Assembly: GCF_002240055.1 (NCBI RefSeq)
Contig: NZ_CP016753.1
Coordinates: 1,922,001 to 1,986,000 of the forward strand
Direction of reading: 5' to 3'
DNA: 64,000 nucleotides
Source: Leptotrichia sp. oral taxon 498
GTDB taxonomy: Bacteria > Fusobacteriota > Fusobacteriia > Fusobacteriales > Leptotrichiaceae
Shown here: piece by piece, positions 9,451 through 44,449 of the stretch
Position numbering within the stretch: the first letter of the stretch is position 1
How the letters are laid out: each line of letters begins with the position of its first letter
Translations under genes and position numbers: made by a program
The notes under the pieces: model-generated
Told to the model about the DNA's origin: nothing
The model's input: the letters and a program-made list of their open reading frames with translations, nothing else
The model's database searches: none

Positions 9451-11848
<2,398 letters not shown>

Positions 11849-24048: not shown

Positions 24049-27000
24049 CTAAATTAATTCACTAGACACAATTTTTTTCTTGTCAGCTTCTTTAATATCT
24101 TCACAAATCACATACTCAATTGTATTTGGATTTTTCAATCTAATAAAAAGACTTCCACTCTCATCATCTTGTACCAAAATCCGTATTCTCAAACATTCTG
24201 AAGCTGGAAATTCTTTTCCCTCTGCTCTTGTATCTCCCGAATAAAGTACTTCTATACTATTTTCATTTTCAATATCGTCATATTTTATCCACTCATTGTA
24301 TTTTGTATTAAAATCAATAATTGGAACAAATCTTCTTTTCTTACTATATCCTATGCAATATTTAAAATTAATTTCTTCATTTTTAGTGATATTTCTAAAC
24401 GGTATATACTCAACTTCTCCATTACCTTCTCTCAATTCTACTAATCCAAAGGCTACTCCTGTTTTAGAATTTAATCCTATAACTTCTCCTTCTGTTTCAT
24501 TTTCTATTGAGTAAGCATCTTTCAAAATAATATTATACTTTTGTTTAAATTCTTCTGTTAATTCATTTTCAAATATTTCTTCCACAAATTTACTTTTTGA
24601 AGAATTTCCTGCCAAGAAAATATATATTTCTTTCAATTTTTTACCATCAAATACCACTTTGAATTTTTCTAAAAATGATATTACGCCATTATAAATATTT
24701 TTTTTCAAAATTTCATCTAATCTGTTATAATCAATATCCAATTCTTCATTTTGATACTGACCTGATTTGTTTGAAAGATAAATCGTTTTTTTCAATTTTT
24801 CTTTTTCTGTTTCTTCCAATTTTCCTTCCCAATAATCTCTCATTGATTCCATTATTTTTTTCATATTGTACTCAGCTTGATTTGACTCAGACACAAATGT
24901 TTCAAACCCTATTTTAGATTTTTGATTTATTGGCAATGAAATTTCATATCCCTTCTCAAACATCTTTTCTCTATTTTGCAAAAATACATCAAAAGCAATT
25001 AATGATAACAAATTTTCTCCACCTAAATATTTATCTCCTCCACTTTCAAGTTCCTGTATTTCATAATCATATTTTCTAGAATTTTCTTTTTCACGATAGA
25101 TTCCATAAGAAAAATCTGTTGTTCCTCCACCAAAATCAAATACTGAATATCCAATTTCATTTTCCAAGTCTGGTTCTACACAGAATTTTTTCAATGCAGT
25201 TATCGCATAAGAAGCAGGTTCACTTGCTCCAAATTTCACTCTAAAATTCTTCATAATTTCTTCGTCATTTAAAATTGAATTTGGAAGTGACTTCATAATA
25301 CCTTTTCTAAAACTATTCAATATTTTATTTTTTACTTCCAGTTCATAAGTTACTGGGAATGATAAAATGTATTCTAAAAATATCGAATATTGTCCCATAT
25401 TATTGATTCTACAACCAATATAGTAAGCATAAATTTCTATTGGATCAAACTCATTTTCATTTAATTCCAAATAACCATTTAAAATTATTTCTTTTCCAGT
25501 TTTATCAGCTATTGTTTTTTTCTTATTTTTATTTGCAGACCATTGTTTTAAATCTAACATAAACTCGTTTATATCAAAATTATTTTGAGTTCTTTTCAGT
25601 TCATTTTCAGCATCAACCGAAACTTGAATATCATCATAATGCGTATATGGTCTACCTTCTGAAGACAAATACTCCGTTATAAATTTTTCAATATTATCAA
25701 AATGAATAATTGTAGCATTTTCATAATTTTCGGTTCTTTCAATAGCATCTAAATTCCCAGAAATTCTAATTGGCAAAGTTTTACTACCATTTATTCCCTC
25801 ATTATCATCTTTATACGAAACAACAACCGTACTTTTAGTCCCAAAATCAATTCCAATTACCCCTGATTTAACAATGTCATTTTTAGGATTTCTGCTATAA
25901 ATTTTCCTATCTAAGATGTCTTCATTTATTTTTTCTCCATCAATAACAACATCATTGTTTTCATCTGTGGCTTCAAAAATATCCCAGCTTCCTTTGTTTC
26001 TGTCATATATTTCTGTAGTATATTTTTTACTTCTGAATCTATCATAATCTTTGTCAACAAAAATTGAAACTAATTTTTTGATTCTAATTTCTTTTTTCAT
26101 ATTTTCTAGTTCGTTTGGTAAAATTTCTTGAAATTCTTTTAATTCTGTTATAACTTTTTCTTTTAAATTTTCAGCCTCCCGGACTGTTATCTTTTTTAAC
26201 CCTTCAATATATATCCCACCTTTTTGAATATAATTCTTTATTTTAGACAATCCTTCTTCATCCAATTTTTGTATAGCTTCTTTTTGACTATTTTTTAAAA
26301 TTTCAACTTTATTTTTATTAAACTCTTCTTTTAAAATTTTTTCTTTTTCATTTTCAATAAATTCATCAATTTTTTTAAAATTACTATTATAAATCATTCT
26401 AATTTCTTTTATTTTTTCATCAAATTCATTCTCGATATTTGAAAATTTTAATATTTGTTTTCTTACATTTTCTTCTTTTGATTCTGCCTCTCGTAATATT
26501 TTTTCTTTTGTTTTAAAATATTGCTCTTCAGCCATTTTTAAAATTTGTAATTTTTTTTCAACACTAGGATTGAATATTTTCATTTGAACAAAATCACCAG
26601 TATAATATCTTAAAAACATATTTTCAATTAAATATGAAACTTCCATGTTTGTTCTACTTTTATTTCTGTCATATGCCTCTGAAGATAAACAAATATATTT
26701 TTTCTTACCTATTCTATCTTCCCAAATCATTTTTGTATTTTTTATAACTATATTCTCCAAAATATTCGGAATTCTTTTTACTAAATTTACAAATTCACCA
26801 CTACCTTTTGAAGAAACTTCTCTCAGTTTTTTTAATATATCTTTTATTTCTTCTTGTTTTTTATTATTAAATTCAATTTCAATATCGCCATCATAATAAC
26901 AATAATAAAATAATTTCTTTTGCAACCACAATATATCTTTATTATAAACATCTTCTTCATAATAAGCTATATCATCATTATCATACTTCTCATTATCCGA

Positions 27001-27192
27001 AAAATATACAGTTAATTTTCTATCAGTAAAATTTTCATATAATTTTTTACTACCTAGTATTTCTACCTCCCCAACATCTCCTATTTGACTTAAAATATCA
27101 TTGTAAGTTTTCTTATAAGACTGATAAGCCTTTCTAATTCCATTTTGATAACTTTCTGGTATATCTACTGATATTCTCAATTCTTGATTCAT
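24049..27192 (-). CDS. Large Hsp70-like ATPase with long N-terminal coiled-coil extension (copy 1)
   Basis: A 1047-aa protein whose Hsp70/actin-type ATPase core starts only at residue 445: GIDFGTKST (phosphate-1, 448-455), FDFGGGTTDF (phosphate-2, 685-694) and LAGNSSKS (adenosine loop, 859-866). Residues 1-210 are unrecognised, and about 215-370 is strongly coiled coil. A GSWDIF motif (401-406) and YSRNPKND (432-439) precede the core, as in its paralogues here. After the core there is no classical substrate-binding domain. Instead there is a shared 120-aa C-terminal domain (GYSKKRRF...EWIKY, ending NTIEYVICED). From residue about 430 onward it is nearly identical to the neighbouring copy 2. 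It is the last gene of the 20-kb locus. Its substrates are unknown. Confidence 0.85.
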   Translation of the reverse strand: MNQELRISVDIPESYQNGIRKAYQSYKKTYNDILSQIGDVGEVEILGSKKLYENFTDRKLTVYFSDNEKYDNDDIAYYEEDVYNKDILWLQKKLFYYCYYDGDIEIEFNNKKQEEIKDILKKLREVSSKGSGEFVNLVKRIPNILENIVIKNTKMIWEDRIGKKKYICLSSEAYDRNKSRTNMEVSYLIENMFLRYYTGDFVQMKIFNPSVEKKLQILKMAEEQYFKTKEKILREAESKEENVRKQILKFSNIENEFDEKIKEIRMIYNSNFKKIDEFIENEKEKILKEEFNKNKVEILKNSQKEAIQKLDEEGLSKIKNYIQKGGIYIEGLKKITVREAENLKEKVITELKEFQEILPNELENMKKEIRIKKLVSIFVDKDYDRFRSKKYTTEIYDRNKGSWDIFEATDENNDVVIDGEKINEDILDRKIYSRNPKNDIVKSGVIGIDFGTKSTVVVSYKDDNEGINGSKTLPIRISGNLDAIERTENYENATIIHFDNIEKFITEYLSSEGRPYTHYDDIQVSVDAENELKRTQNNFDINEFMLDLKQWSANKNKKKTIADKTGKEIILNGYLELNENEFDPIEIYAYYIGCRINNMGQYSIFLEYILSFPVTYELEVKNKILNSFRKGIMKSLPNSILNDEEIMKNFRVKFGASEPASYAITALKKFCVEPDLENEIGYSVFDFGGGTTDFSYGIYREKENSRKYDYEIQELESGGDKYLGGENLLSLIAFDVFLQNREKMFEKGYEISLPINQKSKIGFETFVSESNQAEYNMKKIMESMRDYWEGKLEETEKEKLKKTIYLSNKSGQYQNEELDIDYNRLDEILKKNIYNGVISFLEKFKVVFDGKKLKEIYIFLAGNSSKSKFVEEIFENELTEEFKQKYNIILKDAYSIENETEGEVIGLNSKTGVAFGLVELREGNGEVEYIPFRNITKNEEINFKYCIGYSKKRRFVPIIDFNTKYNEWIKYDDIENENSIEVLYSGDTRAEGKEFPASECLRIRILVQDDESGSLFIRLKNPNTIEYVICEDIKEADKKKIVSSELI

Positions 27193-27229
27193 TGTTTTTC
27201 CTTTCTAAAAATTATATTTTTAATTCCTA

Positions 27230-29340
27230 TTACAACTCTCTCTCTACAATTTTCCCCTCATCAATCTTCTCAACATCTTCACAAATTACATATTCAATCG
27301 TACTTGGATTTTTCAATCTAATAAAAAGACTTCCTTTGTCGTCATCTTGCACTAAAATTCTTATTCTTGAACACTCTGAAGCTGGAAATTCTTTTCCTTC
27401 TGCTCTTGTATTTCCTGAATAAAGTACTTCTATTATTTTTTCATCTTCTACATCATCATATTTTATCCACTCGTTGTATTTTGTGTTAAAATTAATAACT
27501 GGAATAAATCTTCTCTTTTTACTATATCCAAGGCAATATTTAAAATTAATTTCTTCATTTTTGCAATATTTCTAAATGGAATATACTCTACTTCTCCGTT
27601 ACCTTCTCTCAATTCTACTAATCCAAAAGCTACTCCTGTTTTTGAGTTTAAACCTATAACTTTCCCTTCTGTTTCTTCCTCTATCGAATAAGCATTTTTT
27701 AAAATGATATTATATTTCTGTTTAAATTCCTCTGTTAATTCATTTTCAAATATTTCTTCCACAAATTTACTTTTTGAAGAATTTCCTGCCAAGAAAATAT
27801 AAATTTCTTTTAATTTCTTATTATTAAATACTGTATCAAATTTTTCTAAAAATGAAATAATTCCTCCATAAATATTTTTCTTTAAAATTTCGTCTAATCT
27901 ATCATAATCCACATCAAGCTCTTCATTTTTGTATTGATTTTCTTTATTTGAAAGATAAACTGTCACTTTCCCTGAATCCTTCAAACTTTCTTCCAATTTT
28001 CCTTCCCAATAATCTCTCATCGCTTCCATCATTTTTTTCATATTATACTCTGCTTGACTCGCTTCTGACACAAATGTTTCAAATCCTATTTCTGATTTTT
28101 TATTCGCAGGTAATGAGATAAAATATTTACCATTAACTAATTTTTCTCTATTTTGCAAAAATACATCAAATGCAATTAATGACAATAAATTTTCTCCACC
28201 TAAATATTTATCTCCTCCACTTTCTAATTCCTGTATCTCATAATCATATTTTCTAGAATTTTCCTTTTCACGATAAATTCCATAAGAAAAATCAGTCGTT
28301 CCACCACCAAAATCAAATACTGAATACCCAATTTCATTTTCCAAATCTGGTTCTACACAAAACTTTTTCAACGCAGTAATCGCATAAGAAGCAGGTTCAC
28401 TCGCTCCAAAAACTACCCTAAATCTCTTCATAACCTCTTCGTCATTCAAAATTGAATTCGGTAGTGATTTCATAATTCCTTTTCTAAAACTATTCAATAT
28501 CCGATTTTTTACTTCCAATTCATAAGTTACTGGAAACGAAAGATAATATTCCAAAAATATCGAATATTGTGCCATATTATTAATTCTACAACCAATGTAG
28601 TAAGCATAAATTTCTATTGGATCAAATTCTCCTTCTTTCAAATCCAAATACCCATTTATCGTATGCAAAAATCCTCCTTCATCTCTAATTTTTTTCTTTT
28701 TATTTTTACTAGAGGCCCATTGTTTCAAATCTAACATAAATTCATTAATATCAAAATCTTCTGTATTTCTTTTCAATTCATTTTCTGCTTCTAATGATAC
28801 TTGGATATCTTCATAAAATGTATAAGGTCTTCCTTTAGATAAATTATACCACTCAATAAATCTTTCTAAATCACTAAAATGAATAATTGTAGCATTTTCA
28901 TAATTTTCTGTTCTTTCAATATCATTCATATTTCCAGAAATTCTTATTGGTAATGTCTTACTATTGTTAATCCCTGCATTATCATCTCGATAAGATACAA
29001 CTACTGTACTTTTCGTTCCAAAATCTATTCCAACTACTCCTGATTCAACAATATCATATTTAGGATTTCTAGCATAAATTTCATCTTCTATTTCTATAAT
29101 TTCATAATTTTTTCCTTCTCCAATACATAAATTTCCTTCTCCATCTAAATCATCAAAAATATCCCAACTTCCTTTATTTATATCTTTAATTTCATTTTCA
29201 TAAGTTTGTCCATTAAATCTTTCAAAATCTTTTTTTATATAAGCAGGAATTTTTGAATTCTCTTTCCCTCTTATTTCTATAAATTTATCCAAATTTTTAA
29301 TTCTCATCGTTTTTTTATTTCTAACTTCTCTATTTTCCAT
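27230..29340 (-). pseudogene. Hsp70-like ATPase (copy 2), frameshifted near the C terminus
   Basis: A short-N-terminus version of copy 1. It has GSWDIF at 57-62, DFGTKST at 107-113 and FDFGGGTTDF, all intact. A one-base loss in a T5 run (27558-27562, A5 on the coding strand) after RNIAK shifts the frame and ends the protein at 27463 (625 aa) with an unrelated tail. Adding one A restores the copy-1-like C-terminal domain to a stop at 27230-27232, about 703 aa. The ATPase part should fold, so the truncated form may still work. The N-terminal 100 residues differ from copy 1, showing that the duplicates differ mainly in their N-terminal module. Either a decayed gene or a base-calling error. Confidence 0.75.
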
Positions 29341-29456
29341 TTTTATTTCTTCCTTTCATTTTTTAGTTACTTATTCCAAATTCAATATTTATTGTAAATT
29401 TTGCCACTATAAAATCTATAATTAATATAAAAAATTTTAATTTCCTTCTTTTTACT

Positions 29457-29492: not shown

Positions 29493-29759
29493 TTATTTAT
29501 AAATCTTACTTCTATGTCCAAAATCAATAGCCACTATTACCAAAATATCATCCTGAATATCCACAATAAGCCTATAATCCATTATTCTATACCGCCAAAG
29601 CCCTTTTAAATTTCCTGTCAATGCTTTTCCTTTTATTCTTGGATTTTCCACATCTACAAGATTCTTTTTTATATATGAATATAGTGTTCGTTTAGTAGAT
29701 TTATCTAACTTTTTTATTTTCTTATTTAACTCTTCCGAAATTTCTACTCTAAATCCCAT
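29493..29759 (-). CDS. relE: RelE/ParE-family toxin
   Basis: An 88-aa toxin of the RelE/YafQ superfamily, which usually cleaves mRNA on the ribosome. The pattern FRVEISEELNKKIKKLDK, GLWRYRIMDYRLIVDIQDD and VIVAIDFGHRSKIY matches the family, with the C-terminal HRSKIY catalytic region. Its start overlaps the antitoxin gene by 16 bp, the usual antitoxin-then-toxin order. The pair sits inside the Hsp70 locus. Confidence 0.88.
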   Translation of the reverse strand: MGFRVEISEELNKKIKKLDKSTKRTLYSYIKKNLVDVENPRIKGKALTGNLKGLWRYRIMDYRLIVDIQDDILVIVAIDFGHRSKIYK

Positions 29760-30048: not shown

Positions 30049-30948
30049 TTAATCTAAAATAACAAGTGACTGTTTAACAATATCACCTTTCCTATTTTTA
30101 TATCCTTTAAATACAACTTTTTTTACTTCATTTTTTGTATAACCAGTATTTACTGGAATTGATGTTATAGGATTATATCTATCTCCTATTTTATTATCTA
30201 AAAATGTATAAACAGGTGCTGAAAATAATAAATTATATAATTCAAAAAAGTAATAGTATGTTTCTATCAAAATTTCTGTATCTTTTGGATTTTCATTTTT
30301 TTGGATATTAAATTCAATTTGTTCCCATAATAATTTTAAATTTGATGCTTGCAATCCTAGTCCTAAAAATATTTCTTTTCCTTTTTTTTCTGTAATTATA
30401 ACTTCTATTCGTTTTTTTTCATTTTCAGAAATTTTCTTAAAATCATTAAAGATTTTTTCAAAATTATCATTAAAACTTTCATTTGATGAACTATTTTTAA
30501 CTACTTCTTTTGCTTTTTGTTTTTCTTGATTCAACTCTTTTTCCAACTCATCTATTTTTAAAGTCAAATTTTTTTCTTTTTTCTCTGCTTCATTTTTCAA
30601 ATTTTCTTTTTCAGAATTTAATGTTTTTATTTGTTGCTCAAGTTTTTCCTTTTCTCCATCATTTCTATTACTTTCAAATTTTTTTATTTTCTCATTCAAT
30701 TTTCTAATTTCATTTTTCAATGTTTCTTCATTTGATGAACTACTTTGTAAACTTCCCAATTGACTTCTTAAATTTCTAATTTCTATTTTTAATCCATCAT
30801 TCTCTGCTTTCATTTTTGCTTCATTTACAATTCCACTTTTTTTCAACATTTGATTTCTTTTACTTTTTAAACTTTCTGATAAGTTTTTTATTACCCATAA
30901 TAAAAAGATAATTATCGCTATTAATATTACTATTATTACTGCTGCCAT
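30049..30948 (-). CDS. Membrane-anchored coiled-coil protein with GrpE-like C-terminal domain
   Basis: A 299-aa protein with an N-terminal transmembrane helix (residues 3-19), a long coiled coil (about 45-155) and a globular C-terminal part. The last 45 residues match the beta domain of GrpE in pattern: GDRYNP, then VKKVVFKGYK followed by QSLVIL. This compares with GEPFDP, then VVEV.QKGYK followed by RPSMVKV in GrpE, the nucleotide-exchange factor of DnaK. A soluble relative is encoded at 35594-36799. AGGAGG precedes the ATG. Lying directly after the Hsp70-like genes, it is best read as their exchange factor held at the membrane. The homology is by eye and needs a structure check. Confidence 0.7.
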   Translation of the reverse strand: MAAVIIVILIAIIIFLLWVIKNLSESLKSKRNQMLKKSGIVNEAKMKAENDGLKIEIRNLRSQLGSLQSSSSNEETLKNEIRKLNEKIKKFESNRNDGEKEKLEQQIKTLNSEKENLKNEAEKKEKNLTLKIDELEKELNQEKQKAKEVVKNSSSNESFNDNFEKIFNDFKKISENEKKRIEVIITEKKGKEIFLGLGLQASNLKLLWEQIEFNIQKNENPKDTEILIETYYYFFELYNLLFSAPVYTFLDNKIGDRYNPITSIPVNTGYTKNEVKKVVFKGYKNRKGDIVKQSLVILD

Positions 30949-30965: not shown

Positions 30966-33317
30966 TTAATCCAAAACTTCCGTCCTAATCTCTTCTAATT
31001 GTTGTCCTCTCTTGTTAATTACTGTGTAATCAATGGTGTCTTTTCCTCTTGATTTTATAAAAATATCTGCATCTGCATAACTTCTTTCTATTTCTAAAAT
31101 CAAATTATATATTTCACCTTTTTTATTCATAAAATTCAGACATATTTCTTTCTCATCTGCTGATAAAGTTTTAATCCATTCTTCTTCACTATTATTATCT
31201 AGTAATACTTGAAATTCTTCATTTCTTTTTATCCCAACCTTATACAAAAATTCTTCTTCATCAACAATTTTTTCTTTATACATTTTTATCCATCCACTTC
31301 TTTGACAAAGAAGAAGACCATAAACTTTAAAGAAATTTTTATTTAATTCAATCCCATTTTCTAAAACAATTTTATCTCCCTCAAAAATTTCAATTATATC
31401 AATTTCAAATTCGTACTCTTCCATTTTTTTAAAAACTTCACCAATAACAAAATCTTTAAATTCAGGCATAACATCAAATATTATTTTTACTTTTTTAGAA
31501 AAAATATTTTTGTTATTTTCAATATCTAAAAATAAAATTTCTAATTTTTTCCAGATAAGTTCTTGTATTTCCCAAAACTCTTTTCCATCAAATTCTTTAT
31601 TCAAAAATCCGTTTGCTACTTTTTTATTAATTTCTAAATCGTATCTCTCATTATCTAATATTTTTTTATAGTATCCCATTGAATAAGTATATTCATTTTT
31701 ATCTAATTTTAAAACAATATAATTTGTTGGAATATCTGATATTTCTATTTTTTTACTGCTTTGCTCACTTAAAATTCCAGCAAGTAAAGATGTTGTATTT
31801 TCCACTCGATACTCTACTTTATATTTGCTCATTACTTTATCTTTTAATACTGAAGTTGGGATTGATTTTCTTATACCTTTTTCAAAATTGTATTTTATAA
31901 AATCAAGTTCCTCTTTTGTTCTAATATTTGAAAATGACAATGAATATCTCAAAAATATTTTTTTATCAATTTCATTATTCAAATAAAGTCCCAAAGTATA
32001 TGCAAATATTTCAATTAAATTTATTTCTTTATCTATTTCTTCCAAATAAATTGTATTTTTAAATGGGTTTTGAAAATCTATCCAATAAAAATTTTCTTTA
32101 TTTTCAGTATTTTCATATTCTTTAAAAGCATCATAAGAAAACAAAATATCATTTTTTGAAGTATTTGGTCTGCTCTCAAATTTTTCATAATCTTCCAAAA
32201 ATTTTTTAATATTACAAAATTTCATAATACTCAAATTTTCTATAGAATCCTCATTTCTTTTAGAAAAAATACTTTTAGGATATATTCTACCATCTGAATC
32301 TTTTATTAATACTCTAACCATTTCATTGTCAAATTCTATCAATACTTGTGCATTTTTATCCACGTTATTAAGCGGATTTTCTCCGTAAATACTTTCATCA
32401 GAATACACTTTTCTAAAATCTTCACTTTTAGAAAATTTTCTTTTATCATAAATTGACCATAATCCTAAATTCATATCTTTTAGATTTGGTTTTAAATATT
32501 CAATTTTACTTTTATCATTTTCTTCTTCTAAAATTTTATCCTCGAGAAATCCCTTTTCAAAAATAATTTCTCCCTTTTCAATTAATTTTCTTAAACCCTT
32601 CACATTTTTCACAATAACTACATATTCATCGGTTCCTTTTTGAGCCATTCCTATAATATTAAAAAACATCATATTTGCCAAATTTTTAGAAATATCTAAT
32701 TCTCGATCAAAAATATAAAATTTCCCATTTTTTCTTTCAATTAATAAATTTAATATTTCTATCGTAGCATTCGTATTCAACGATATTTCTTTTATCGGAA
32801 ATATTATAGAATTTCCTTCTTCTTCAGTAAACATTTCAAATTCTATATTATAAATTTCATAATTATTATTTCGATTCATCAATATTTTTTGAAAATTGTT
32901 ATTACTTATTCTTATTTTCCCATTTTCAAAAATTTTTCTTTGAATATAATAATTTTCATTCTTAATTTGTTTAAATAAATATTCATTAGGAATTGAAGAA
33001 TTGAAATCTAAAATTCCATATTTTGACAATTCCTCTTCGTATTCTTCTTTTCTTTCAATTATTTCATTTTTGTTTTTCACAAAAATAGGATCTTTTAATT
33101 TGTAAATTATCAGTTTTCTTTTTATATCTATTATTTTAGTTTCTGTCTCTACTTTTGTATTAAAATATTCCAAATAAAGTCTTTTTTCAATATTTTTAAA
33201 TAACTCTATTATTTTTTCTTTATTATCAATATATAACCTAGAAATATAGTTATATAATTCTTCTTTTTTTATAGTATCCTTATGCAAATACACGACCTTA
33301 TTGTTTACTTTTAACAT
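30966..33317 (-). CDS. Catalytically degenerate Hsp70 paralogue
   Basis: A 783-aa protein colinear with the Hsp70-like neighbours over its second half. It has the pre-core motif GLWSIYD (285-291) and YGENPLNN (311-318), then FAYTLGLYLNNE, FLRYSLSF and EKGIRKSIPTSVL, which align with FAYYIGLNLNNM-type segments of the active copies. The nucleotide-binding loops are lost: phosphate-1 reads VLIEFDNEMVRVLI (325-338) and no FDFGGGTTDF remains. The C-terminal domain is shared (VGIKRNEEF...EEWIK, ending DTIDYTVIN). It is thus likely a non-hydrolysing structural or regulatory partner. Residues 1-270 are unrecognised. Confidence 0.75.
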   Translation of the reverse strand: MLKVNNKVVYLHKDTIKKEELYNYISRLYIDNKEKIIELFKNIEKRLYLEYFNTKVETETKIIDIKRKLIIYKLKDPIFVKNKNEIIERKEEYEEELSKYGILDFNSSIPNEYLFKQIKNENYYIQRKIFENGKIRISNNNFQKILMNRNNNYEIYNIEFEMFTEEEGNSIIFPIKEISLNTNATIEILNLLIERKNGKFYIFDRELDISKNLANMMFFNIIGMAQKGTDEYVVIVKNVKGLRKLIEKGEIIFEKGFLEDKILEEENDKSKIEYLKPNLKDMNLGLWSIYDKRKFSKSEDFRKVYSDESIYGENPLNNVDKNAQVLIEFDNEMVRVLIKDSDGRIYPKSIFSKRNEDSIENLSIMKFCNIKKFLEDYEKFESRPNTSKNDILFSYDAFKEYENTENKENFYWIDFQNPFKNTIYLEEIDKEINLIEIFAYTLGLYLNNEIDKKIFLRYSLSFSNIRTKEELDFIKYNFEKGIRKSIPTSVLKDKVMSKYKVEYRVENTTSLLAGILSEQSSKKIEISDIPTNYIVLKLDKNEYTYSMGYYKKILDNERYDLEINKKVANGFLNKEFDGKEFWEIQELIWKKLEILFLDIENNKNIFSKKVKIIFDVMPEFKDFVIGEVFKKMEEYEFEIDIIEIFEGDKIVLENGIELNKNFFKVYGLLLCQRSGWIKMYKEKIVDEEEFLYKVGIKRNEEFQVLLDNNSEEEWIKTLSADEKEICLNFMNKKGEIYNLILEIERSYADADIFIKSRGKDTIDYTVINKRGQQLEEIRTEVLD

Positions 33318-33334
33318 CTTTACACCATTTCTTC

Positions 33335-35485
33335 CTATTCATTTGATAAATCTATCTCTTTTGGCTCTTCTATATATTCATCTTTTTTTATTTTTTCACT
33401 ATTAGAAACGCAATACTCAATTTTATTTGGAGAAATACTTCTTATATAAATATATTCGTCATCATCATATTCATCATCTAAATCAATCATAATTGTTTTT
33501 ATATTTTCTAATTCAACATCTTTCAATAAGTTAGAATAATTATCTGTAAAGTAAATTTCATTTTCTATCTCATTTGCTACAATATATTTTTTCCACTCAT
33601 CATACCCAATTTTTTTATCCAAAATATTTTTAAATTCTCCATTTCTCTTTCTTCCAACAATATAATTAAACGGAACTTCTTCTACTGAACTCTCTGTTTT
33701 TATTTCTCCATTTTTTCTAAGCAAAATACTTCCATAAGCAACCCCTGTTTTACCATTTGGAATAAATTTATTTCTATCAATCACATATCCCATTTCTCTT
33801 TGTTTTTCTTCAGCTTCTTCTGTCCCTAGTGGCGGAAATATCTTTACTTTTTCACTAAATTTTTCATTTCCATCTACCATTTCTACTTTTTTTGCTTCAA
33901 AAATTTCTTTAATATATTCAGATTTACTTGAATTTCCTGCCAGAAATATGTTAATTTCATTTATTGTTTTACTTTCTACTGTTGAAATTAGATTTGCAAA
34001 AAACTCATTTACTCCTTTTTTTATCATTTCTCTTATTCGATTTTTTAATCTATCAATATCCACTATTAAATTAACTGTAGTTTGATTAGAAAATTTATCC
34101 AATAAATTTATTGACAATTCTCCTAAATCATCATTGTAATTATCAGGCATATCACTGTTTTCCCAAATAAATCTTAATCCCTCAGCTATTTTTATTAAAT
34201 TACTTTTAGCTTCTTTTGTTTCATTTATCATATCATAATTTTTCAATGGCACTTTTTTGTTTAAAGGTAGAGAAATTTGAAAATTCCCCTTTCTCAAATT
34301 TTCAATATTTTCTTCTGACATAAATGTTTCATATGCTAATGCACTTAAAATATTTTCTCCTCCTAAATACTTATATCCACCCGATGAAATACTTTCCATT
34401 TCATATGAATATCTATCATCATCTTCAAGTTTTCTAAAAATCCCAAAATCAAAATCTGTTGTTCCACCACCGAAATCAAATATACCATAAAATACTTCTT
34501 CATCTTTTACCCTATTAAAAAAATTATATTGTTCCAATGCTGTGGCCGCATAACAAAATGGCTCACTATTAAAATTTCTTACAGAAAATTTTTTCATTAT
34601 TTTTTCATTGTTTAAAATCGTTACAGGTAATGATTTTTTTATTCCTTTTTCAAAGCATAGTCTTATTTTTTCTCTTATAGCTTTTTCATAAGTTACAGGA
34701 TAACTCAAAATGTATCTTAAAAATATTTTTTTATTACACATATTATTAAGATTTAATCCAATGTAATAAGCATACAATTCAACAGGAGTAATATCGTCTT
34801 CTGAACCTTCTAAAAATTTTTTTATACTATACTCATTTCTTCTATCTTTTATATTAATTTTTCGATTTCCACTCGCCCATTGTTTTATATCTGACAATAT
34901 TGAATTCAGTACTTCAGGTTTATTTGAATTTACAAAATCATTTTGTGCATGATGTGATACTTGAAGATCATTCCATTCAGTATAAGGACGCCCTTCTTTT
35001 TCTTTATACAATCTTAAGAATTTCTCAAAGTCTCCAAATTCAATCATTGTCGGATTTTCAAAATTCTTTTCTTTATAATTTTCATTAGCACTATTCGAAC
35101 CTATTTCTAATGGATATATAGTTTCTGCATTATCTCTATAAATTGCAACTGTACTTTTTGTTCCAAAATCTATCGCTACAATTGCACTTTTTTCTACATC
35201 ATTTTTTGGATTTCTCCCATATACTTTTATATTCTCTTCCTGCACAAAAGGCACACTTTCTGACCCTTTCACATCATCAAAAACATCCCAATGCCCACCA
35301 TTTATATCAGTTAATTCTGATTCTAATAACTCATTTAAATTTGCTCTTTTATATTCACTTTTTTTATAATATTCTTTTATTTTAATATCATTCATAAAAC
35401 AATTCTCTCTTTCTGCTATATTTTCTACCATTCTTTTTATCTCATCTTGTATTCTATTTCTTTCATCGCCAAATTTTTTACTCAA
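33335..35485 (-). CDS. Hsp70-like ATPase with minimal N-terminal extension
   Basis: A protein of about 716-721 aa. The Hsp70 core has AIDFGTKST, FDFGGGTTDF and FLAGNSSKS, all intact, and is preceded by GGHWDVFDD and YGRNPKND as in the paralogues. The C-terminal domain (VGRKRNGEF...YDEWKKY, ending NKIEYCVSN) replaces the normal substrate-binding domain, and an acidic run EYDDDEY lies within it. Several TTG starts are possible (35500, 35494, 35485); GGAG is best spaced for the one at 35485. It follows the soluble GrpE-like gene across a 108-bp gap holding an inverted repeat. Likely an active ATPase of the locus. Confidence 0.85.
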   Translation of the reverse strand: MSKKFGDERNRIQDEIKRMVENIAERENCFMNDIKIKEYYKKSEYKRANLNELLESELTDINGGHWDVFDDVKGSESVPFVQEENIKVYGRNPKNDVEKSAIVAIDFGTKSTVAIYRDNAETIYPLEIGSNSANENYKEKNFENPTMIEFGDFEKFLRLYKEKEGRPYTEWNDLQVSHHAQNDFVNSNKPEVLNSILSDIKQWASGNRKINIKDRRNEYSIKKFLEGSEDDITPVELYAYYIGLNLNNMCNKKIFLRYILSYPVTYEKAIREKIRLCFEKGIKKSLPVTILNNEKIMKKFSVRNFNSEPFCYAATALEQYNFFNRVKDEEVFYGIFDFGGGTTDFDFGIFRKLEDDDRYSYEMESISSGGYKYLGGENILSALAYETFMSEENIENLRKGNFQISLPLNKKVPLKNYDMINETKEAKSNLIKIAEGLRFIWENSDMPDNYNDDLGELSINLLDKFSNQTTVNLIVDIDRLKNRIREMIKKGVNEFFANLISTVESKTINEINIFLAGNSSKSEYIKEIFEAKKVEMVDGNEKFSEKVKIFPPLGTEEAEEKQREMGYVIDRNKFIPNGKTGVAYGSILLRKNGEIKTESSVEEVPFNYIVGRKRNGEFKNILDKKIGYDEWKKYIVANEIENEIYFTDNYSNLLKDVELENIKTIMIDLDDEYDDDEYIYIRSISPNKIEYCVSNSEKIKKDEYIEEPKEIDLSNE

Positions 35486-35520
35486 TATTCTCAACTCCAA
35501 AATACATTTTTACAAACAAA

Positions 35521-35593: not shown

Positions 35594-36799
35594 TTATTTT
35601 AATAAAACAATAGATTGATACAATAATTTTTTGTCTCTTTTTCTTTGATACCCTTTCACAATAACTCTAGCTACATCACCATTGCTCACACTATTTGAAG
35701 ATGGTATTTGAGAAATTGGATTGTATCTTTCACCAATTTCAGGATTTACAAACTCATACACTTCTTCATCATACTCTTTATTCATCACATTAATTACATA
35801 GTCATAGATTTTAACTAACACAGCATAAAAATCAGCATTCTCAATAAAATCATTTTTTAAAAAATCTTTATAATTTGAAAATTTTGTAGTTACCAAATAT
35901 AAAAACATATCTTTTCCCAAATGTGGTTTTAATATCGCGTCATATTTCTCTCTATCATTTTCAGGAATTTTCAAATACTCGCTATAAAGAGCTTCTAATT
36001 CTTCTAAGTCTTTAAAATCCGCTAATCTTGATATTAAGTTATTCTTATCATTTTTTAATTCATTATTATCTTTTTCTAATCCAAAAATTTTATAATCTCT
36101 ATTTTTCACATCTTCTGTCAAAGAACTAACTTGATTTTCCAAACGAGTTATCGATTGATTTTTAGAAAGAATTTCTCTTCTTAAGTCATCAACATTTTTT
36201 TCTAAATTAGTTTTTTCTCTCAACAAATTATTTATTTTGAAGTTTAAATCATTTATTTTAACATCTCTAGATTTAATTTCTCCATTTAATTTTAAAAATT
36301 CATCTTCTGCTCCCTTTTTAAAATTTGAAAATTTTGTTTCTAAATTATCGAAATTATCTTTTTCTTGATTTAAATCTTTACTTAATTTTTTAATTTCATC
36401 AATTTTCTCATTTTTTTCTTCTTCTAATTTTTTATTTTTTTCTTCCAATTCAGTATTTTTTTCTGTTAGTTCTGATATTCTTTGATCTTTTTCTTCTATC
36501 TCTTTTATTTTTTCATTTTTTAAATTTTCTAATCTTTCCTTTAAATCTAGATTTTCTTCTTTTAATTCATTTTCTTGATTTTCATTTCCAAAATTTAAGT
36601 TATTTTTCTCTTTTACTTCTTTTTTATCTTCATCAGAAATCGTTTCTTTTGGAGAATAAATATTATTTAATTTCTCAATTTCAGATATTCTCTTTTCTAA
36701 TCCATCAACTCTTGTACTAATTTTGGCTATAATCGATAAAATACCTTTTATTTTCTCTATACTATCATTTAAAATTTTTCCTGTTTGTCCATCATTCAT
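35594..36799 (-). CDS. Coiled-coil protein with GrpE-like C-terminal domain
   Basis: A 401-aa soluble protein. Residues about 60-275 form one very long Glu/Lys/Asn-rich coiled coil; the globular part starts near 285. The C terminus reads GERYNPISQIP, then VARVIVKGYQRK and QSIVLLK, matching the GrpE beta-domain pattern (GEPFDP, VQKGY, RP.MV.V) and the C terminus of the 30049-30948 protein. GrpE also has a long helix followed by a small beta domain that opens the Hsp70 nucleotide cleft. So this is inferred to be the nucleotide-exchange factor for the Hsp70 encoded just downstream. Its coiled coil is far longer than in ordinary GrpE (about 200 aa in total). Confidence 0.7.
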   Translation of the reverse strand: MNDGQTGKILNDSIEKIKGILSIIAKISTRVDGLEKRISEIEKLNNIYSPKETISDEDKKEVKEKNNLNFGNENQENELKEENLDLKERLENLKNEKIKEIEEKDQRISELTEKNTELEEKNKKLEEEKNEKIDEIKKLSKDLNQEKDNFDNLETKFSNFKKGAEDEFLKLNGEIKSRDVKINDLNFKINNLLREKTNLEKNVDDLRREILSKNQSITRLENQVSSLTEDVKNRDYKIFGLEKDNNELKNDKNNLISRLADFKDLEELEALYSEYLKIPENDREKYDAILKPHLGKDMFLYLVTTKFSNYKDFLKNDFIENADFYAVLVKIYDYVINVMNKEYDEEVYEFVNPEIGERYNPISQIPSSNSVSNGDVARVIVKGYQRKRDKKLLYQSIVLLK

Positions 36800-37456: not shown

Positions 37457-38077
37457 TTATATTTTTTCGTTTAATTTTTCAAGTTCTTCATCCATCTTGT
37501 CTAATTTCTCTTTTAAATAATCATACATTGCAACATCATCATCTGCGTCTAATTCATTATTTAAATATGCATCTATATTTGTTGTAGGAATTTTACCATT
37601 TTTATGATCTTCTAGCATTTTTTTAAATTCATTTGCATCCATTTTTATTTCAGCTGCTCCTTTTATTGTTCCAAATGAAATAGGTTCTTCCAACCCTAAA
37701 TCTTCACCAAAAGCCTGAAATATTGTTGAAATTGTATTTGATTTATGTTTTTTCTTCTCTGTTTCATTTAAATTTTCTAATTTATGTTCTTCTTCAGGAG
37801 TTAATTCTTTCATTGATTCTTTTACAGCATTTATATAACTTGCAACACTTTCATAGTTCTCAGGTTTTATATCTCTAACTTCTGCTGTATAAGAGAATCT
37901 TTCATAATCTCTTGGCTCTATTTGGCTTTTTGGACTTAACAATTTTACTATACCTTCAGCTAAATTCGCTATTCCGGAAAATAGTGCTCTTCCTACACCA
38001 GCTATTGCAGTTCCCACCGCTCTAATTGCTCCTGTTATTGCATGTCCTACCCCACTAAGAAAACTCCAAAATCCCAT
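37457..38077 (-). CDS. Protein with glycine-rich amphipathic N terminus (paralogue A)
   Basis: A protein of about 206 residues starting MGFWSF. Residues 1-45 are hydrophobic and rich in Gly/Ala (VGHAITGAIRAVGTAIAGVG), like a membrane-inserting or glycine-zipper segment. The rest is soluble and acidic, with the block QIEPRDYERFSYTAE, IKGAAEIKMD and a C-terminal DADDDVAMYDYLKEKLDKM. It is a tandem paralogue of the next gene. GAGGAG is spaced for the ATG at 38077 rather than 38086. No family recognised. A membrane-active effector or substrate of the Hsp70/ATPase system is a hypothesis only. Confidence 0.65.
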   Translation of the reverse strand: MGFWSFLSGVGHAITGAIRAVGTAIAGVGRALFSGIANLAEGIVKLLSPKSQIEPRDYERFSYTAEVRDIKPENYESVASYINAVKESMKELTPEEEHKLENLNETEKKKHKSNTISTIFQAFGEDLGLEEPISFGTIKGAAEIKMDANEFKKMLEDHKNGKIPTTNIDAYLNNELDADDDVAMYDYLKEKLDKMDEELEKLNEKI

Positions 38078-38154
38078 TTTATTCATCTCCTCTTATTAAT
38101 TTTTATTACTATTTTTTTCTTTCTTATATTTTTTTATTTTACTTTAATGATGTA

Positions 38155-38742
38155 TCATCCCATTTTATCCAATTTTTCTTTTAAATAATCATACATCGCT
38201 ACATCATCATCTGCATCTAATTTATTGTCTAAATACGCATCTACATCCATTGTAGGTATTTTATTATTTTTATAATCCTCTACCATTTTTTTAAATTCTG
38301 TTGGATTCATTTTTATTTCAGCTGCACCCTTTATTGCTCCAAATGAAATTGGTTCTTTCAATCCTAATTCTTCTCCAAAAGCCTGAAATATTGTTGCTAT
38401 CGTATTCGATTTATATCTTTTCTTTTCTGTCTCACTTAAATTTCCTAATTTTTGTTCTTCTTCAGGTGTCAATTCTTTCATTGAATTTTTTACATCACTT
38501 ATATAACTTGAAACATCCTCATAATTTTCAGGTTTTTTATCTTTTATATTAGCTGTATAAGAAAATCTTTCATAATCTCTTGGTTCTATTTGATTTTTGG
38601 GACTCAATAATTTTGCTATACCTATAGCTAAATTTACTATTCCAAGAAACGGACCTACTCCTAGACCAAGTATAGAACTTCCTATCGCGCTAATTGCTCC
38701 TACAACACCACTTATTGCTGATGCTATCAAACCAAATACCAT
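38155..38742 (-). CDS. Protein with glycine-rich amphipathic N terminus (paralogue B)
   Basis: A 195-aa paralogue of the neighbouring protein. The N terminus is hydrophobic and glycine-rich (IASAISGVVGAISAIG, then LGLGVGPFLGIVNLAIG). It shares LLSPKNQIEPRDYERFSYTA, MKELTPEEE, SNTIATIFQAFGE, IKGAAEIKM and DADDDVAMYDYLKEKLDKM with it. The two N termini differ in sequence but keep the same Gly/Ala hydrophobic character, so that property seems to be what is selected. Its ribosome binding site overlaps the stop of the ATPase gene, so the two are translationally coupled. Confidence 0.65.
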   Translation of the reverse strand: MVFGLIASAISGVVGAISAIGSSILGLGVGPFLGIVNLAIGIAKLLSPKNQIEPRDYERFSYTANIKDKKPENYEDVSSYISDVKNSMKELTPEEEQKLGNLSETEKKRYKSNTIATIFQAFGEELGLKEPISFGAIKGAAEIKMNPTEFKKMVEDYKNNKIPTMDVDAYLDNKLDADDDVAMYDYLKEKLDKMG

Positions 38743-38744
38743 TT

Positions 38745-41700
38745 TTACTCATCTCCTTTTCCTAATTTTTCCATTGCTAATTTTTTTATTTCTAAAGGAT
38801 CTCCACTATCTATTTTTTCATCTGTTATTTCTTCTGACAAAAATTCTATTATATTTTTCTCTAATTCTTCTACTCTATTAATTTCTTCTAATTTATGTTT
38901 TTTCTTAACAAAATATTTTTCTTTTAAATATTTTGCTAATAGATTTTTTTCATTTTCTGTTGCAATTCTTATATTTTTTACATATTCTTTGTTAGCTTTT
39001 TTAAAAATATTTGATCTATCTCTTATATCCCTTATAGAAAAATTTTCCAATGCTGCATACATATTTTTGAAACTACTTAGCAAGTCACTTCTGCTAAATT
39101 CTATAATAGTTTTCATTTCCTCAAAAGTCGGCTCCCTATCAAAAATATTACTTTCTGAAAATATTTCTCTTCTATAATTTTCTCTATAGTAATTAATGCA
39201 ACTATCTTTCAATATTTGTTCATCTACTTCTTCATCCGAAGTTGTATTTGTCAATAATTTTATTTGAACTTGTACTGCTTTTGACCATCCTTGAGAAAAA
39301 ACAACTGCTCTTCCTGTTGGCAAACTAGATAAAAATTCTTTTTGTTCTTTTTCCAAAATCATTGTATTTCCAACCGATTCTTTATCATCTTCTGCAAACA
39401 ATTTATGAATTATTTTTGTATTCGTATTTTTCAACACTTCAGGAGTTAATTTATTCGGAATTTGATCAGCAATTATTAACGATTCTCCATATTTTCTAAC
39501 TTCAGCAAGCATGTCAGCAAAAATTTCCACACCTTGTTTTTTATTAACCGAATCTCCTGGCTCAAATTTACTAAGTAGTCTATGTGCTTCTTCAATCAAT
39601 GTAATATGTTTAAAATGTTTATTTTCTTTATATTTTGCTCTTAATGCTTCTCTTAAATTCGTCATTATAAGTCCCATTACAAAAGATTTTTCTCCAGTAT
39701 TTTTTACTTCTTCTATTTCTAAAACAACTTTTTTATCTAATAATCCCACAAAATCAATACTTCTCGGTGTATTTAACATAAGTCCTTTTGAACCTAGAGT
39801 CAAACTTTGTAATCTAGCTTTTATTGAACCAATATAGTCTTTTTTCAATCTTTCATCAAATCCTTGTTTCTCAGCTACAGCATCCACTTTTTTCAATATA
39901 TCATTGAATGTAGGAAATGCGTAAACATCATCTGCAAATGGATTTTCAAATTTTGTATTCTTATTCGTATTTACATTCCAACCATAATCTTTGTAACATT
40001 CATATATTGTTGATTCAATTAATTGTGGTATAGCTGCTTCCATATCAAATGAGGCTTCAATAGCAGCTTTTATCATATCTACTCTCGAAGTTAAACTTTC
40101 GTGTGGAAAAAACTCGAATGGATTCAATCTAAATGGTGCAATATTATCTTGACCTAAAGTAAAAATTACCATATCTTCTGTTTTTTTACTAAGTTTCATA
40201 ATTCTATATTCCGTTTTAGCTGGTTCCACTACCAAAAATGGCATTCCACTTTCAAGCAAAATTCTTTGACAAGTAGTCGTTTTACCTGTTCCTGTTACTC
40301 CAGCAACAAAAATATGTTTATTCAAATCTTTTTTATCAATATTTACTTCTGAATTTTCTAATATTTTCCCACTTTGTACCAAATTTCCTAGTTCCAATGG
40401 TTCTTTCATTTTTTCATCAGTTGTATTTAATCCAAATTCCACTTGTTTTGTTACTTTTAATCCGTTTACTTCTTTTCTAGGAAGTCCTGCAATCAACGAT
40501 AATTCTTTCGATGAATAAAAATCATTAACAAATCCATTTCCTATTTCTATTGAATTTACAGTATAGAACTCATCTTTTTCAATATCATTTTGAATTTTAT
40601 TCATTTGAAAATTAACTAAATTATTTATTATTTTTTTATCTTTCACATTATCTAATCTGTAATATTCCAATGGCCTTTTATTCCCTTTTTTCCCAGAAGA
40701 TAATGATTTCAATGTATTTCCCAATTTAAGCAAAGTTGCAGAATTATCAGCAAAAATATATGTATTTACTCTAAATAACCCTTTTCCTTTTCCATAATCA
40801 ATTATTGGCAATAAAGTTTCATCAATATATGAAATCCATGAATGAATTTCTTTTTTTATAATTTCAATATTTTCTGTTTCAGATGTTCCTGTACTAGAAC
40901 CACTATTTTTAGTTGTACTGTTATTTTTTGTAGTTCCAATTGTCTTATTTTCCGAAGTTCCTGATGTTTTGCTAGTTGAAGTTCCAGTAGCTTTACTCAA
41001 TGAAGTTCCTGATGTTCTACTTGTCGATGTTCCTTTAGCTTGGCTAAGGTTACTTCCTTCTGTGATTGTTTTACTTCCTCCTTCTGATTTATTTTTATTT
41101 GTTCCCCATGATGTTCCAGCACTTTCCCCTGTTGAAGATGATTTACTACTTGTAGAAGAACCATTACTCGTTCCTGTTGTCGTACTTTTACCTGTATTTT
41201 CTGTTTTGTTAGATCCCTCAGAATTACTCCAGGTATTTCCAGTAGCTTTATTATAATTCGTTCCTTTTGTTTCACTTTCATTAGAACCTTTAGTATCACT
41301 AGCACTGCTTCCTTCTGTTTTTGTCTCACTAGATCCACTAGTCTCATTACTACTTTTACCTTTTGCTGTACTCTCACTAGTCCCACTTCCTACAGTAGCA
41401 CTCTCCCCAGTATTATTACTTTGATTTTCCCCCAATTGATAACTTCTCTTATGAACTGTATTATAATAATTATACTGTTTATAAATATCCTTCTCAATCT
41501 CTACAATTTCCTCTTTCTGAATTGGATTAGCATAAATCACAAGTCCAAATGTCCCTTGATTTCCCACGCTCATTATGTCAATTAATCTGTCAATTCCCTG
41601 AAAATCACTTCTATCTTCAGATTCATTTATTCCAGGATTTCCTTCAAAATATGCATATTTATTCCCTTGATTTCTTATAACCTTCAAAACTTCTTCTTTT

Positions 41701-42125
41701 TCATCAGAAATAATTTCTTTTATCTTACTTCCTCTAAAATTCCCTTCAATACTCGGTTTTAAAATCATATCTCCAACATCTTGCAATTCCAAAATGCTAT
41801 TGCTTGAATCAATATAACTGTTTTTCGCAACTCCAAAATAAATCGAAACTTTTTCTTTCGTCCCCAAAATAATGTACAAAAAATTATTAAAACTATCCCT
41901 CAATGCTCCCAAAACATTCTCAAAAGCCTCTCTTCTCGGTGCTTTTTCTTCTTCTTCATAAGTAATCTCATTAATCTTATAAAGTGCAATATCCCCAAAA
42001 TTCTCCTCTAACAAATCAAAATCCGTCACTTCATAAATATCAGTAAATAAATCTTGTTTTTTTACTTCATTCACTAATTTTGTGTCAATTTCTTTTAAAC
42101 TTTCTATTAAAGTTTCTTTTTTCAT
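38745..42125 (-). CDS. HerA/DUF87-type ATPase with Ser/Thr/Gly-rich linker
   Basis: An 1126-aa protein in three parts. Residues 1-232 are an unrecognised globular domain. About 235-418 is a low-complexity Ser/Thr/Gly/Lys/Asn linker with near-repeats (GTSxSxTSGTS). Residues 420-1126 hold a HerA/FtsK-like P-loop ATPase: Walker A GVTGTGKTT (609-617), then VVEPAKTEYR, Walker B ITLIEEAHRLL, and the DUF87 motifs EVRKYGESLIIADQIPNKL and KNTNTKIIHKL. Such ATPases are hexameric motors acting on DNA or protein. The linker suggests the N-terminal domain reaches a distant partner. The gene precedes and is coupled to the glycine-rich paralogues. Confidence 0.85.
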   Translation of the reverse strand: MKKETLIESLKEIDTKLVNEVKKQDLFTDIYEVTDFDLLEENFGDIALYKINEITYEEEEKAPRREAFENVLGALRDSFNNFLYIILGTKEKVSIYFGVAKNSYIDSSNSILELQDVGDMILKPSIEGNFRGSKIKEIISDEKEEVLKVIRNQGNKYAYFEGNPGINESEDRSDFQGIDRLIDIMSVGNQGTFGLVIYANPIQKEEIVEIEKDIYKQYNYYNTVHKRSYQLGENQSNNTGESATVGSGTSESTAKGKSSNETSGSSETKTEGSSASDTKGSNESETKGTNYNKATGNTWSNSEGSNKTENTGKSTTTGTSNGSSTSSKSSSTGESAGTSWGTNKNKSEGGSKTITEGSNLSQAKGTSTSRTSGTSLSKATGTSTSKTSGTSENKTIGTTKNNSTTKNSGSSTGTSETENIEIIKKEIHSWISYIDETLLPIIDYGKGKGLFRVNTYIFADNSATLLKLGNTLKSLSSGKKGNKRPLEYYRLDNVKDKKIINNLVNFQMNKIQNDIEKDEFYTVNSIEIGNGFVNDFYSSKELSLIAGLPRKEVNGLKVTKQVEFGLNTTDEKMKEPLELGNLVQSGKILENSEVNIDKKDLNKHIFVAGVTGTGKTTTCQRILLESGMPFLVVEPAKTEYRIMKLSKKTEDMVIFTLGQDNIAPFRLNPFEFFPHESLTSRVDMIKAAIEASFDMEAAIPQLIESTIYECYKDYGWNVNTNKNTKFENPFADDVYAFPTFNDILKKVDAVAEKQGFDERLKKDYIGSIKARLQSLTLGSKGLMLNTPRSIDFVGLLDKKVVLEIEEVKNTGEKSFVMGLIMTNLREALRAKYKENKHFKHITLIEEAHRLLSKFEPGDSVNKKQGVEIFADMLAEVRKYGESLIIADQIPNKLTPEVLKNTNTKIIHKLFAEDDKESVGNTMILEKEQKEFLSSLPTGRAVVFSQGWSKAVQVQIKLLTNTTSDEEVDEQILKDSCINYYRENYRREIFSESNIFDREPTFEEMKTIIEFSRSDLLSSFKNMYAALENFSIRDIRDRSNIFKKANKEYVKNIRIATENEKNLLAKYLKEKYFVKKKHKLEEINRVEELEKNIIEFLSEEITDEKIDSGDPLEIKKLAMEKLGKGDE

Positions 42126-42862: not shown

Positions 42863-42940
42863 TAAATTTTCTCCTCATTTTAAAATTTCTTTTTATTATC
42901 TTTTATCTAATTATTATTTACATTTTGAAAATAAATTATA

Positions 42941-43624: not shown

Positions 43625-43669
43625 ATTCTTATCCTTTCTCGCATTTCACATTATTATCATGTAATCTTG

Positions 43670-44311: not shown

Positions 44312-44449
44312 CTCACACTCTCCTCTACAGTTATGCAAAAGCTGCATTTAAACTTTCGTTTTTCTAATTTTAATAAAAAAGATAAACTCTTTTACTTTCT
44401 AAATTTTTATTTTTTTATTTTTTAATATATTATCTTTAAACTTATTAAT

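Follow-up and report, generated by a model that had tools for sequence, protein, structure and literature searches.

The 64,000-nucleotide window analyzed here (G000:C1:1922001-1986000, contig NZ_CP016753.1) lies within the complete 2.15 Mb genome of Leptotrichia sp. oral taxon 498 and contains two adjacent genes, designated A and B, for Hsp70-like proteins that join a common C-terminal motor to different N-terminal heads. In our judgment, the chances are about even that A and B are tandem copies in a widespread and apparently undescribed head-and-motor Hsp70 system with a likely conflict role. Such a system is best labeled a variant of the predicted Hsp70-containing conflict systems, its distinctive feature being an exchangeable head on a constant motor. 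The parts of the two genes are as follows.

26158..27192, minus strand: head of A, residues 1-345; no match to the family profile, strongest divergence from the orthologue at residues 146-366
25960..26157, minus strand: connector of A including the WDIF motif, residues ~346-411; matches the family N-terminal profile
24049..25869, minus strand: motor of A, residues ~442-1047, resembling the nucleotide-binding domain (NBD) and the beta part of the substrate-binding domain (SBD-beta) of Hsp70, without the alpha lid (AlphaFold2 model, Foldseek, VIA alignment)
27463..29340, minus strand: B, with a short head, connector and motor, in a 625-amino acid frame cut by a frameshift (alignment to A; intact orthologue)
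27230..27580, minus strand: C-terminal remnant of B in a shifted frame (tblastn to A)

Divergence and age of the A/B pair

Gene A (24049-27192, minus strand, 1047 amino acids) and the adjacent B region (27230-29340, minus strand) align with 82% nucleotide identity over 1996 columns, from nucleotide 1141 of A, just before WDIF, to the C terminus, whereas the residues preceding WDIF number ~402 in A and 58 in B. The two genes do not diverge evenly over their full length. A first-pass annotation of this DNA had described a recent duplication, nearly identical from WDIF to the end with mostly synonymous changes. The shared region was correctly delimited, but near-identity was overstated, as the motors agree in ~82% of their residues as well. 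Over 510 codons, the numbers of synonymous substitutions per synonymous site (dS) and of non-synonymous substitutions per non-synonymous site (dN) are 0.77 and 0.13, respectively; the proportions of differences (pS, pN) and the site numbers correspond to ~140 synonymous and ~148 non-synonymous differences, which contradicts the predominance of synonymous ones. The motors are under purifying selection (dN/dS ~0.17). Their dS is approximately five times the value between species (0.147 for the A motor and its orthologue in the sister species, G002), and a recent duplication is thereby ruled out.

The same annotation had offered gene conversion as a process keeping the motors alike. Among quartet sites of A and B across both species, 294 group orthologues, 2 are concerted and 3 are cross-grouped, which rules out present-day conversion as the cause since the species split. 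With conversion excluded for that period, the likeness of the motors is due to purifying selection since the split, older conversion being possible.

Gene B, earlier taken as one open gene over 27230-29340, has one base fewer than A in an A-run near 27573. Its open frame covers only 27463-29340 (625 amino acids), and its C-terminal ~115 residues are encoded in a different one, where the remnant retains 77% identity to A residues 931-1046. The sister species has an intact orthologue of 703 amino acids (L015:5824-7935), which suggests that the frameshift is not ancestral but arose recently by mutation or reflects a sequencing error.

Predicted fold of the motor and its GrpE-like partner

Sequence and model comparison show the motor to be a lidless Hsp70 (NBD plus SBD-beta) with nucleotide-binding motifs kept. 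Pfam Hsp70 gives no match for A, B or the two further Hsp70-like genes of the window, C and D, and general family searches miss the relation. A profile of 57 motor sequences searched against Protein Data Bank (PDB) sequences finds mortalin and DnaK (best E 3.6e-6), whereas a smaller profile of 7 motors retrieved no Hsp70 from the same sequences. The DFGT, EP, GGGT, and LGGE motifs can be aligned with those of mortalin, and they include columns that do not vary among the 57 sequences. In the AlphaFold2 model of A, the mean predicted local distance difference test score (pLDDT) is 74.6, with values mostly between 85 and 98 in the motor and between 30 and 70 in the head. The top Foldseek match of this model is DnaK lacking SBD-alpha (E=7.7e-20), and all 50 matches listed are Hsp70-family chains or complexes. 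In VIA, A residues 442-1047 align with DnaK residues 1-472 or further (Z 24.5, 449 aligned residues, root mean square deviation 7.4); alignments centered on the NBD have deviations of 3.3-4.8 Å. The strand-rich residues ~927-1045, corresponding to SBD-beta, align within DnaK to approximately residue 500, and the modeled protein ends after the beta domain, the helical lid of canonical DnaK being absent.

A GrpE-fold protein is, by its model, encoded together with the motor. The model of the product of 35594-36799 (mean pLDDT 80.8) has a long helix, short helices and a C-terminal beta wing, the architecture of GrpE. GrpE accounts for 7 of the 8 top Foldseek matches in PDB, at modest E values of 2.2e-3 to 0.26, and Pfam GrpE is the commonest family among relatives (7 of 53).

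Heads and connector

The N termini of A and B had been called unrelated. This is true of their length and of the ~345 residues that A carries upstream of the connector and that are absent from B; it does not extend to a connector of ~60 residues common to both. Residues 340-411 of A match positions 229-292 of the family N-terminal profile (E=1.6e-7), residues 15-60 of B match the end of this profile at the same positions (~229-292), and residues 6-72 of D match positions 227-288 (E=1.7e-9). Profile comparison thus found homology of the N termini in the connector only, and full-length homologous heads in A and B were rejected.

Residues 1-340 of A have no match to the family N-terminal profile (E=4, maximum sensitivity). 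Long helices are predicted at 209-289 and 337-379, model confidence being low before ~340. No PDB fold was assignable to the A head, where model confidence is low and structural alignments (VIA) cover residues 442-1047 only. Only 2 of the 98 genomes examined in the phylum, those of its own species pair, have relatives of this head, and none was found beyond. A likeness of residues 206-318 to type III effectors (five weak phmmer matches, E about 0.1) was judged to be chance.

Comparison with the sister species

A search of 60 relatives with A matched 4 genomes including the window's own; one of them, G002, has the whole operon. Most 150-column windows of the locus share 93-100% identity with G002. 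Identity below 82% is confined to the upstream edge (76%), 43072-43210 (69%), 29155-29451 (75-78%), 26095-26757 (67-80%), and the last window (63%). Two of these valleys fall on the heads: 29155-29451 comprises the N terminus of B and its upstream region, and 26095-26757 corresponds to A residues 146-366.

Motors are 97-98% identical between the species (A: 97% protein identity, dN 0.013, dS 0.147; B: dN 0.009, dS 0.163). The heads have diverged much further, with dN 0.097 and dS 0.103 for A residues 1-145, dN 0.277 and dS 0.641 for A residues 146-366 (56% identity), and dN 0.47 and dS 0.41 for B residues 1-40 (46% identity). The replacement ratio differs between head and motor by Fisher's test for both parts of the A head (p=1e-7 for 1-145, p=2e-9 for 146-366). 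Residues 1-145 look like a region of fast change in place, because dN is about equal to dS at the background dS.

Head exchange across the family

A scan of 84,980 species genomes yielded 316 confirmed stretches, the best 80 of which were kept and represent 78 loci. Together with the window, two loci of G002, and one each of genomes G044 and G019, these constitute the 83 loci used for operon counts; 15 redundant loci were omitted from the head set and from the neighbor set, and protein set A3 comprised 51 of 52 listed proteins (without L099). The family was found in Bacillota, Campylobacterota, Gammaproteobacteria, Zetaproteobacteria, Fusobacteriota, and others. A search for an Escherichia coli copy with a Vibrio motor as the query found none at the DNA level. 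Of 98 genomes in the phylum of Leptotrichia, 83 match at E<=0.001, but only 5 of them strongly; the matches in the remaining 78 are weak and short, as expected from ordinary DnaK.

Most family proteins are 900-1060 amino acids long with heads of ~270-420 residues. The majority of heads form one fast-diverging family, with 42, 43, and 42 of 44 held-out members recovered; the N-terminal profile was trained on 87 sequences, including tandem copies later classified with it. Pfam families in 69 heads, among the top 25, were Biotin_lipoyl (3) and WD40 (1), with no family common to the rest. The WD40-repeat head belongs to Ghiorsea (L023:8969-12010), the Pfam match of one head-set member (E 7.4e-89) being attributed to it through the repeats seen. 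Hydrophobic segments of transmembrane type occur in heads of Helicobacter (L054:12013, L075:9539, L067:1) and Sulfurovum (L089:12005), and a helical head was recognized by eye in Epulopiscium (L073:9167). Both copies on an Acinetobacter plasmid have Lcl_C-like heads (E about 1e-6, below the gathering score), seen only there among the families listed. Lcl_C is related to C-type-lectin-like folds.

The head before the conserved connector is exchanged between tandem copies across the family. At least five lineages have tandem copies that group together in the motor tree, either by themselves or joined by the corresponding pair of close relatives, but that differ in head type: the window and G002, three Lachnospiraceae loci (one event), Helicobacter, Sulfurovum L089, and Epulopiscium L073. 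Sister tandem motors carry canonical, transmembrane, or coiled-coil heads, or none. The Sulfurovum pair has motors 73% and heads ~21% identical. Tandem copies with the same head type are found in L041, L053, and L115, and the L035 head is a shortened canonical one. Between Photobacterium species (L071/L077), motors are 90% and heads 40% identical. The proposal of a constant motor with an exchanged N-terminal module is therefore borne out by the head valleys against the sister species and by the differing heads on sister tandem motors, and comparison of N-terminal modules among relatives likewise finds heads diverging while motors stay alike.

In Ghiorsea, a separate gene with membrane segments and WD40 repeats like those of the WD40 head (L023:12473-14140) lies between Hsp70-like genes with 98% identical motors.

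Head rates and the HerA-like ATPase

The ratio of head dN to motor dN was calculated for 101 close pairs in 13 clades; pairs with motor identity <0.70, <120 head codons, or <3 motor replacements were dropped. Clade medians are 18.4, 39.7, 3.64, 2.68, and 4.06 where all loci have a HerA-like ATPase gene; two mixed clades have medians of 3.07 and 4.36, and clades in which no such gene was seen have 1.80, 1.98, 1.25, 2.40, 1.20, and 1.51, with synonymous sites saturated in many pairs and one clade resting on very few changes. The medians of the five all-ATPase clades all lie above those of the six ATPase-free clades (1 in 462 orderings, one-sided). Judging from these ratios, heads appear to evolve much faster than the motor in loci carrying the ATPase, a split that was noticed post hoc.

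Operon and neighborhood

Genes A and B close an operon-like series on the minus strand, running from 44347 down to 24049 in the order: three paralogues of ~225-235 amino acids, a 1126-amino acid ATPase, two glycine-rich paralogues of ~200 amino acids, a 185-amino acid protein, a GrpE-like protein, D, C, a second GrpE-like protein, a ParE-type toxin, B, and A. In total, the window has four Hsp70-like genes, and not two as first annotated, two GrpE-like genes, one HerA/FtsK-type ATPase, and two glycine-rich proteins. The remaining features are:

29493..29759, minus strand: gene for a ParE-type toxin, flanked by B and the second GrpE-like gene (Pfam PF05016, E=7.8e-12)
30049..30948, minus strand: second coiled-coil gene of the GrpE-like cluster (cluster c1)
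30966..33317, minus strand: C, degenerate Hsp70-like, 783 amino acids, without DFGTKST and FDFGGGT motifs
33335..35500, minus strand: D, short-headed Hsp70-like, 721 amino acids (motor profile E=0; D itself contributed to the profile)
35594..36799, minus strand: GrpE-like coiled-coil protein (model and Foldseek)
37457..38086, minus strand: glycine-rich protein with hydrophobic N terminus, cluster c3 (found in 27 loci)
38155..38742, minus strand: paralogue of the preceding glycine-rich protein, cluster c3 (clustering)
38745..42125, minus strand: HerA/FtsK-type ATPase, 1126 amino acids, with a long Ser/Thr/Gly-rich insert, cluster c2 (HerA models; NCBIfam NF033849, E=2.5e-28, below its cut-off)
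42155..44347, minus strand: three paralogous genes of ~225-235 amino acids, no function assigned (paralogy; the middle one with a divergent patch at 43072-43210)

Of the four Hsp70-like copies in this genome, A is intact and long-headed, D is short-headed, C is of pseudo-ATPase type, and B is short-headed and disabled by its frameshift. The reading frame of C is interrupted in the sister species, and C may be a pseudo-ATPase or a decaying gene. The ParE-type toxin gene may stand outside the system. The patch at 43072-43210, in the second half of the middle paralogue (227 amino acids), has 69% nucleotide identity to the sister species vs. ~97% around it and is a second fast-changing part of the operon.

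Across the 83 loci, GrpE-like genes occur in 66, HerA-like in 33, and glycine-rich c3 in 27. The usual orders are GrpE-Hsp70-HerA-c3-c4 in several Bacillota, Hsp70-c3-HerA-c3-c6-GrpE in Vibrionales and relatives, and GrpE-Hsp70 alone. The Acinetobacter piscicola plasmid cassette (NZ_CP048660) encodes, in this order, a WYL regulator, a HerA-like ATPase, small glycine-rich genes, a coiled coil (GrpE-like), two Hsp70-like genes, HEPN, a dynamin-family protein, and an integrase. Among 116 non-core neighbors, taken without matched control neighbors, Pfam found WYL (6), GmrSD_N (2), and NERD (2), the background for WYL being 36 matches in 21 whole genomes of relatives. PADLOC hits on neighbors are led by WYL (7) and NERD-helicases (3), many PADLOC models being generic. 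The WYL, HEPN, and integrase neighbors suggest a defense-type system.

Several observations concern genes around these loci. In the window, 15531-18038, near the operon, encodes an 835-amino acid protein that by eye resembles a C5 cytosine methyltransferase joined to another methyltransferase-like part, and ligA lies at 9830-11848; in G002, ligA directly follows copy A. Upstream of the G002 operon are two near-identical tandem genes of 550-554 amino acids, AAA-ATPase-like by eye (L014:2323-5874). In G019, of the same family, a divergent interrupted Hsp70-like gene shares L017:6605-15632 with genes for a WYL-like regulator, a NERD/UvrD-like protein, a radical-SAM-activase-like protein, and coiled-coil proteins whose ends are GrpE-like (names by eye).

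Relation to known systems

With DnaK/Hsp70 and GrpE, the system shares the NBD and SBD-beta fold, the DFGT, EP, GGGT, and LGGE motifs, and a GrpE-fold partner in the operon; it differs in lacking the alpha lid, in its long exchangeable head and conserved connector, and in that no J-domain gene was recognized. According to the available text of Kaur et al. (2020; PMC7159879), HSP70 and GrpE genes occur together in predicted conflict systems with GAP1-N2 GTPases, some with a second HSP70. The present system has these two genes in common with them but differs, as far as that text goes, in the HerA/FtsK-type ATPase and the exchangeable head, and no GTPase was recognized in the operon proteins scanned.

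The available part of the CoCoNuT paper (PMC11090510) describes Hsp70-like NBD/SBD proteins (CnuD), often with coiled coils and with degenerate Walker-A-like motifs, and an FtsK/HerA enzyme (EccE3-HerA) with a beta insertion of variable length, beside a small helical protein, as an accessory of Type III-A CoCoNuTs. To that extent, the likeness to Type III CoCoNuTs covers the Hsp70-like NBD/SBD, coiled coils, the FtsK/HerA enzyme with its variable insertion, and the small helical protein; by analogy with this description, the EccE3-HerA accessory and the HerA-like ATPase may be the same enzyme. Here, in contrast, the motifs are kept and a GrpE-like partner is present, the word GrpE occurring zero times in PMC11090510. 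McrB/McrC were recognized neither in the window operon proteins scanned nor in the top 25 families of the 116 neighbors. The PilZ-DnaK proteins CsdK1/CsdK2 of Myxococcus xanthus, in the portion of PMC10313047 available, are similar in adding a domain to DnaK, in their paired copies and in a link to regulated cell death; they differ in that the added domain is PilZ, and no GrpE/HerA operon is mentioned in that portion. No published description of a GrpE/Hsp70/HerA head-exchange family was found in a search that left subscription journals and bioRxiv largely outside.

Proposed mechanism and alternative explanations

In the mechanism we propose, the head would choose the target, bringing the motor to a specific partner or site, for example a protein of foreign origin, a membrane, or a scaffold. 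Head binding would drive the ATP cycle, no J-domain partner having been found so far, and the GrpE-like protein would reset it. The conformational change would be passed to the HerA-like ATPase and the glycine-rich protein, which would act on DNA or membrane as the response. A conflict role, anti-phage or anti-mobile-element, is probably the most likely one because of the arms-race pattern and the WYL, HEPN, and integrase neighbors; the patchy occurrence in the phylum (strong in 5/98 genomes) is counted in its favor. More specifically, the family may be one of recognition receptors built on Hsp70, in which an invariant lidless Hsp70-GrpE engine is combined with a HerA-type ATPase and a glycine-rich effector, the exchangeable, fast-evolving head, whether of Lcl_C, WD40, transmembrane, coiled-coil, biotinyl-lipoyl, or family-specific type, sets what is sensed, and tandem duplication gives paired detectors that differ in their heads; we put this forward tentatively.

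A number of findings weigh against a conflict system with selected heads. The window operon has no nuclease or other established effector, and PADLOC leaves A, B, and D unmatched and gives C no more than a weak, chance-like match. Relatives were found in only 2 of 72,556 plasmid records and in none of 50,697 phage records, and none was confirmed in viral contigs, where 71 stretches matched the pattern; mobility is therefore modest, and a phage or viral origin was rejected. No stretch of the A head has a confident fold. The dS of 0.64 in A residues 146-366 fits a single recombination import without selection, and gltX is 97% but ligA 77% identical between G000 and G002, so that imports or replaced genes occur elsewhere around the locus too. 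The contrast between clades with and without the ATPase was seen only after the fact, and an ATPase scored as absent may lie outside the stretch examined, several loci being at contig ends.

Three other explanations were considered. Heads could localize a housekeeping-type Hsp70 within a specialized proteostasis or envelope machine, their change reflecting relaxed constraint or co-evolution with clients. Loci with only GrpE-like and Hsp70-like genes and head rates near those of the motor are consistent with this, as are the transmembrane and biotinyl-lipoyl heads, which resemble localization modules; the rarity and patchiness in the phylum, the WYL/HEPN/integrase context, and head dN up to 40 times that of the motor in ATPase-containing operons make it unlikely. 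Somewhat more doubtful still is the view that the system is an offshoot or independent extension of CoCoNuT-type systems, in which the Hsp70-like proteins would be relatives of CnuD and the ATPase an accessory of EccE3-HerA type. The components described in the available text of PMC11090510 speak for this, yet no McrB/McrC was recognized in the operon proteins scanned or among the top 25 neighbor families, and CnuD motifs are degenerate there whereas DFGT and GGGT are kept here, a comparison made by description only.

The most prosaic account, an ordinary old duplication with no functional meaning, appears improbable. A simple 5' deletion could explain the loss of the B head, the high dS of the A tract is as expected from an unselected recombination import, and B is frameshifted. 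Nevertheless, both species have preserved the arrangement, one of them with an intact B, dN is about equal to dS at background dS in A residues 1-145, and the pattern recurs independently in other lineages.

If the interpretation as a head-and-motor conflict system is true, Hsp70, usually a generalist, would power a target-specific system as its constant engine, and the choice of target would reside in a replaceable front module. This would also provide a testable mechanism for the Hsp70/GrpE components of predicted conflict systems, and natural head-swap pairs, such as the two Photobacterium alleles, with 90% identity in the motor and about 40% in the head, would serve for finding what is sensed.

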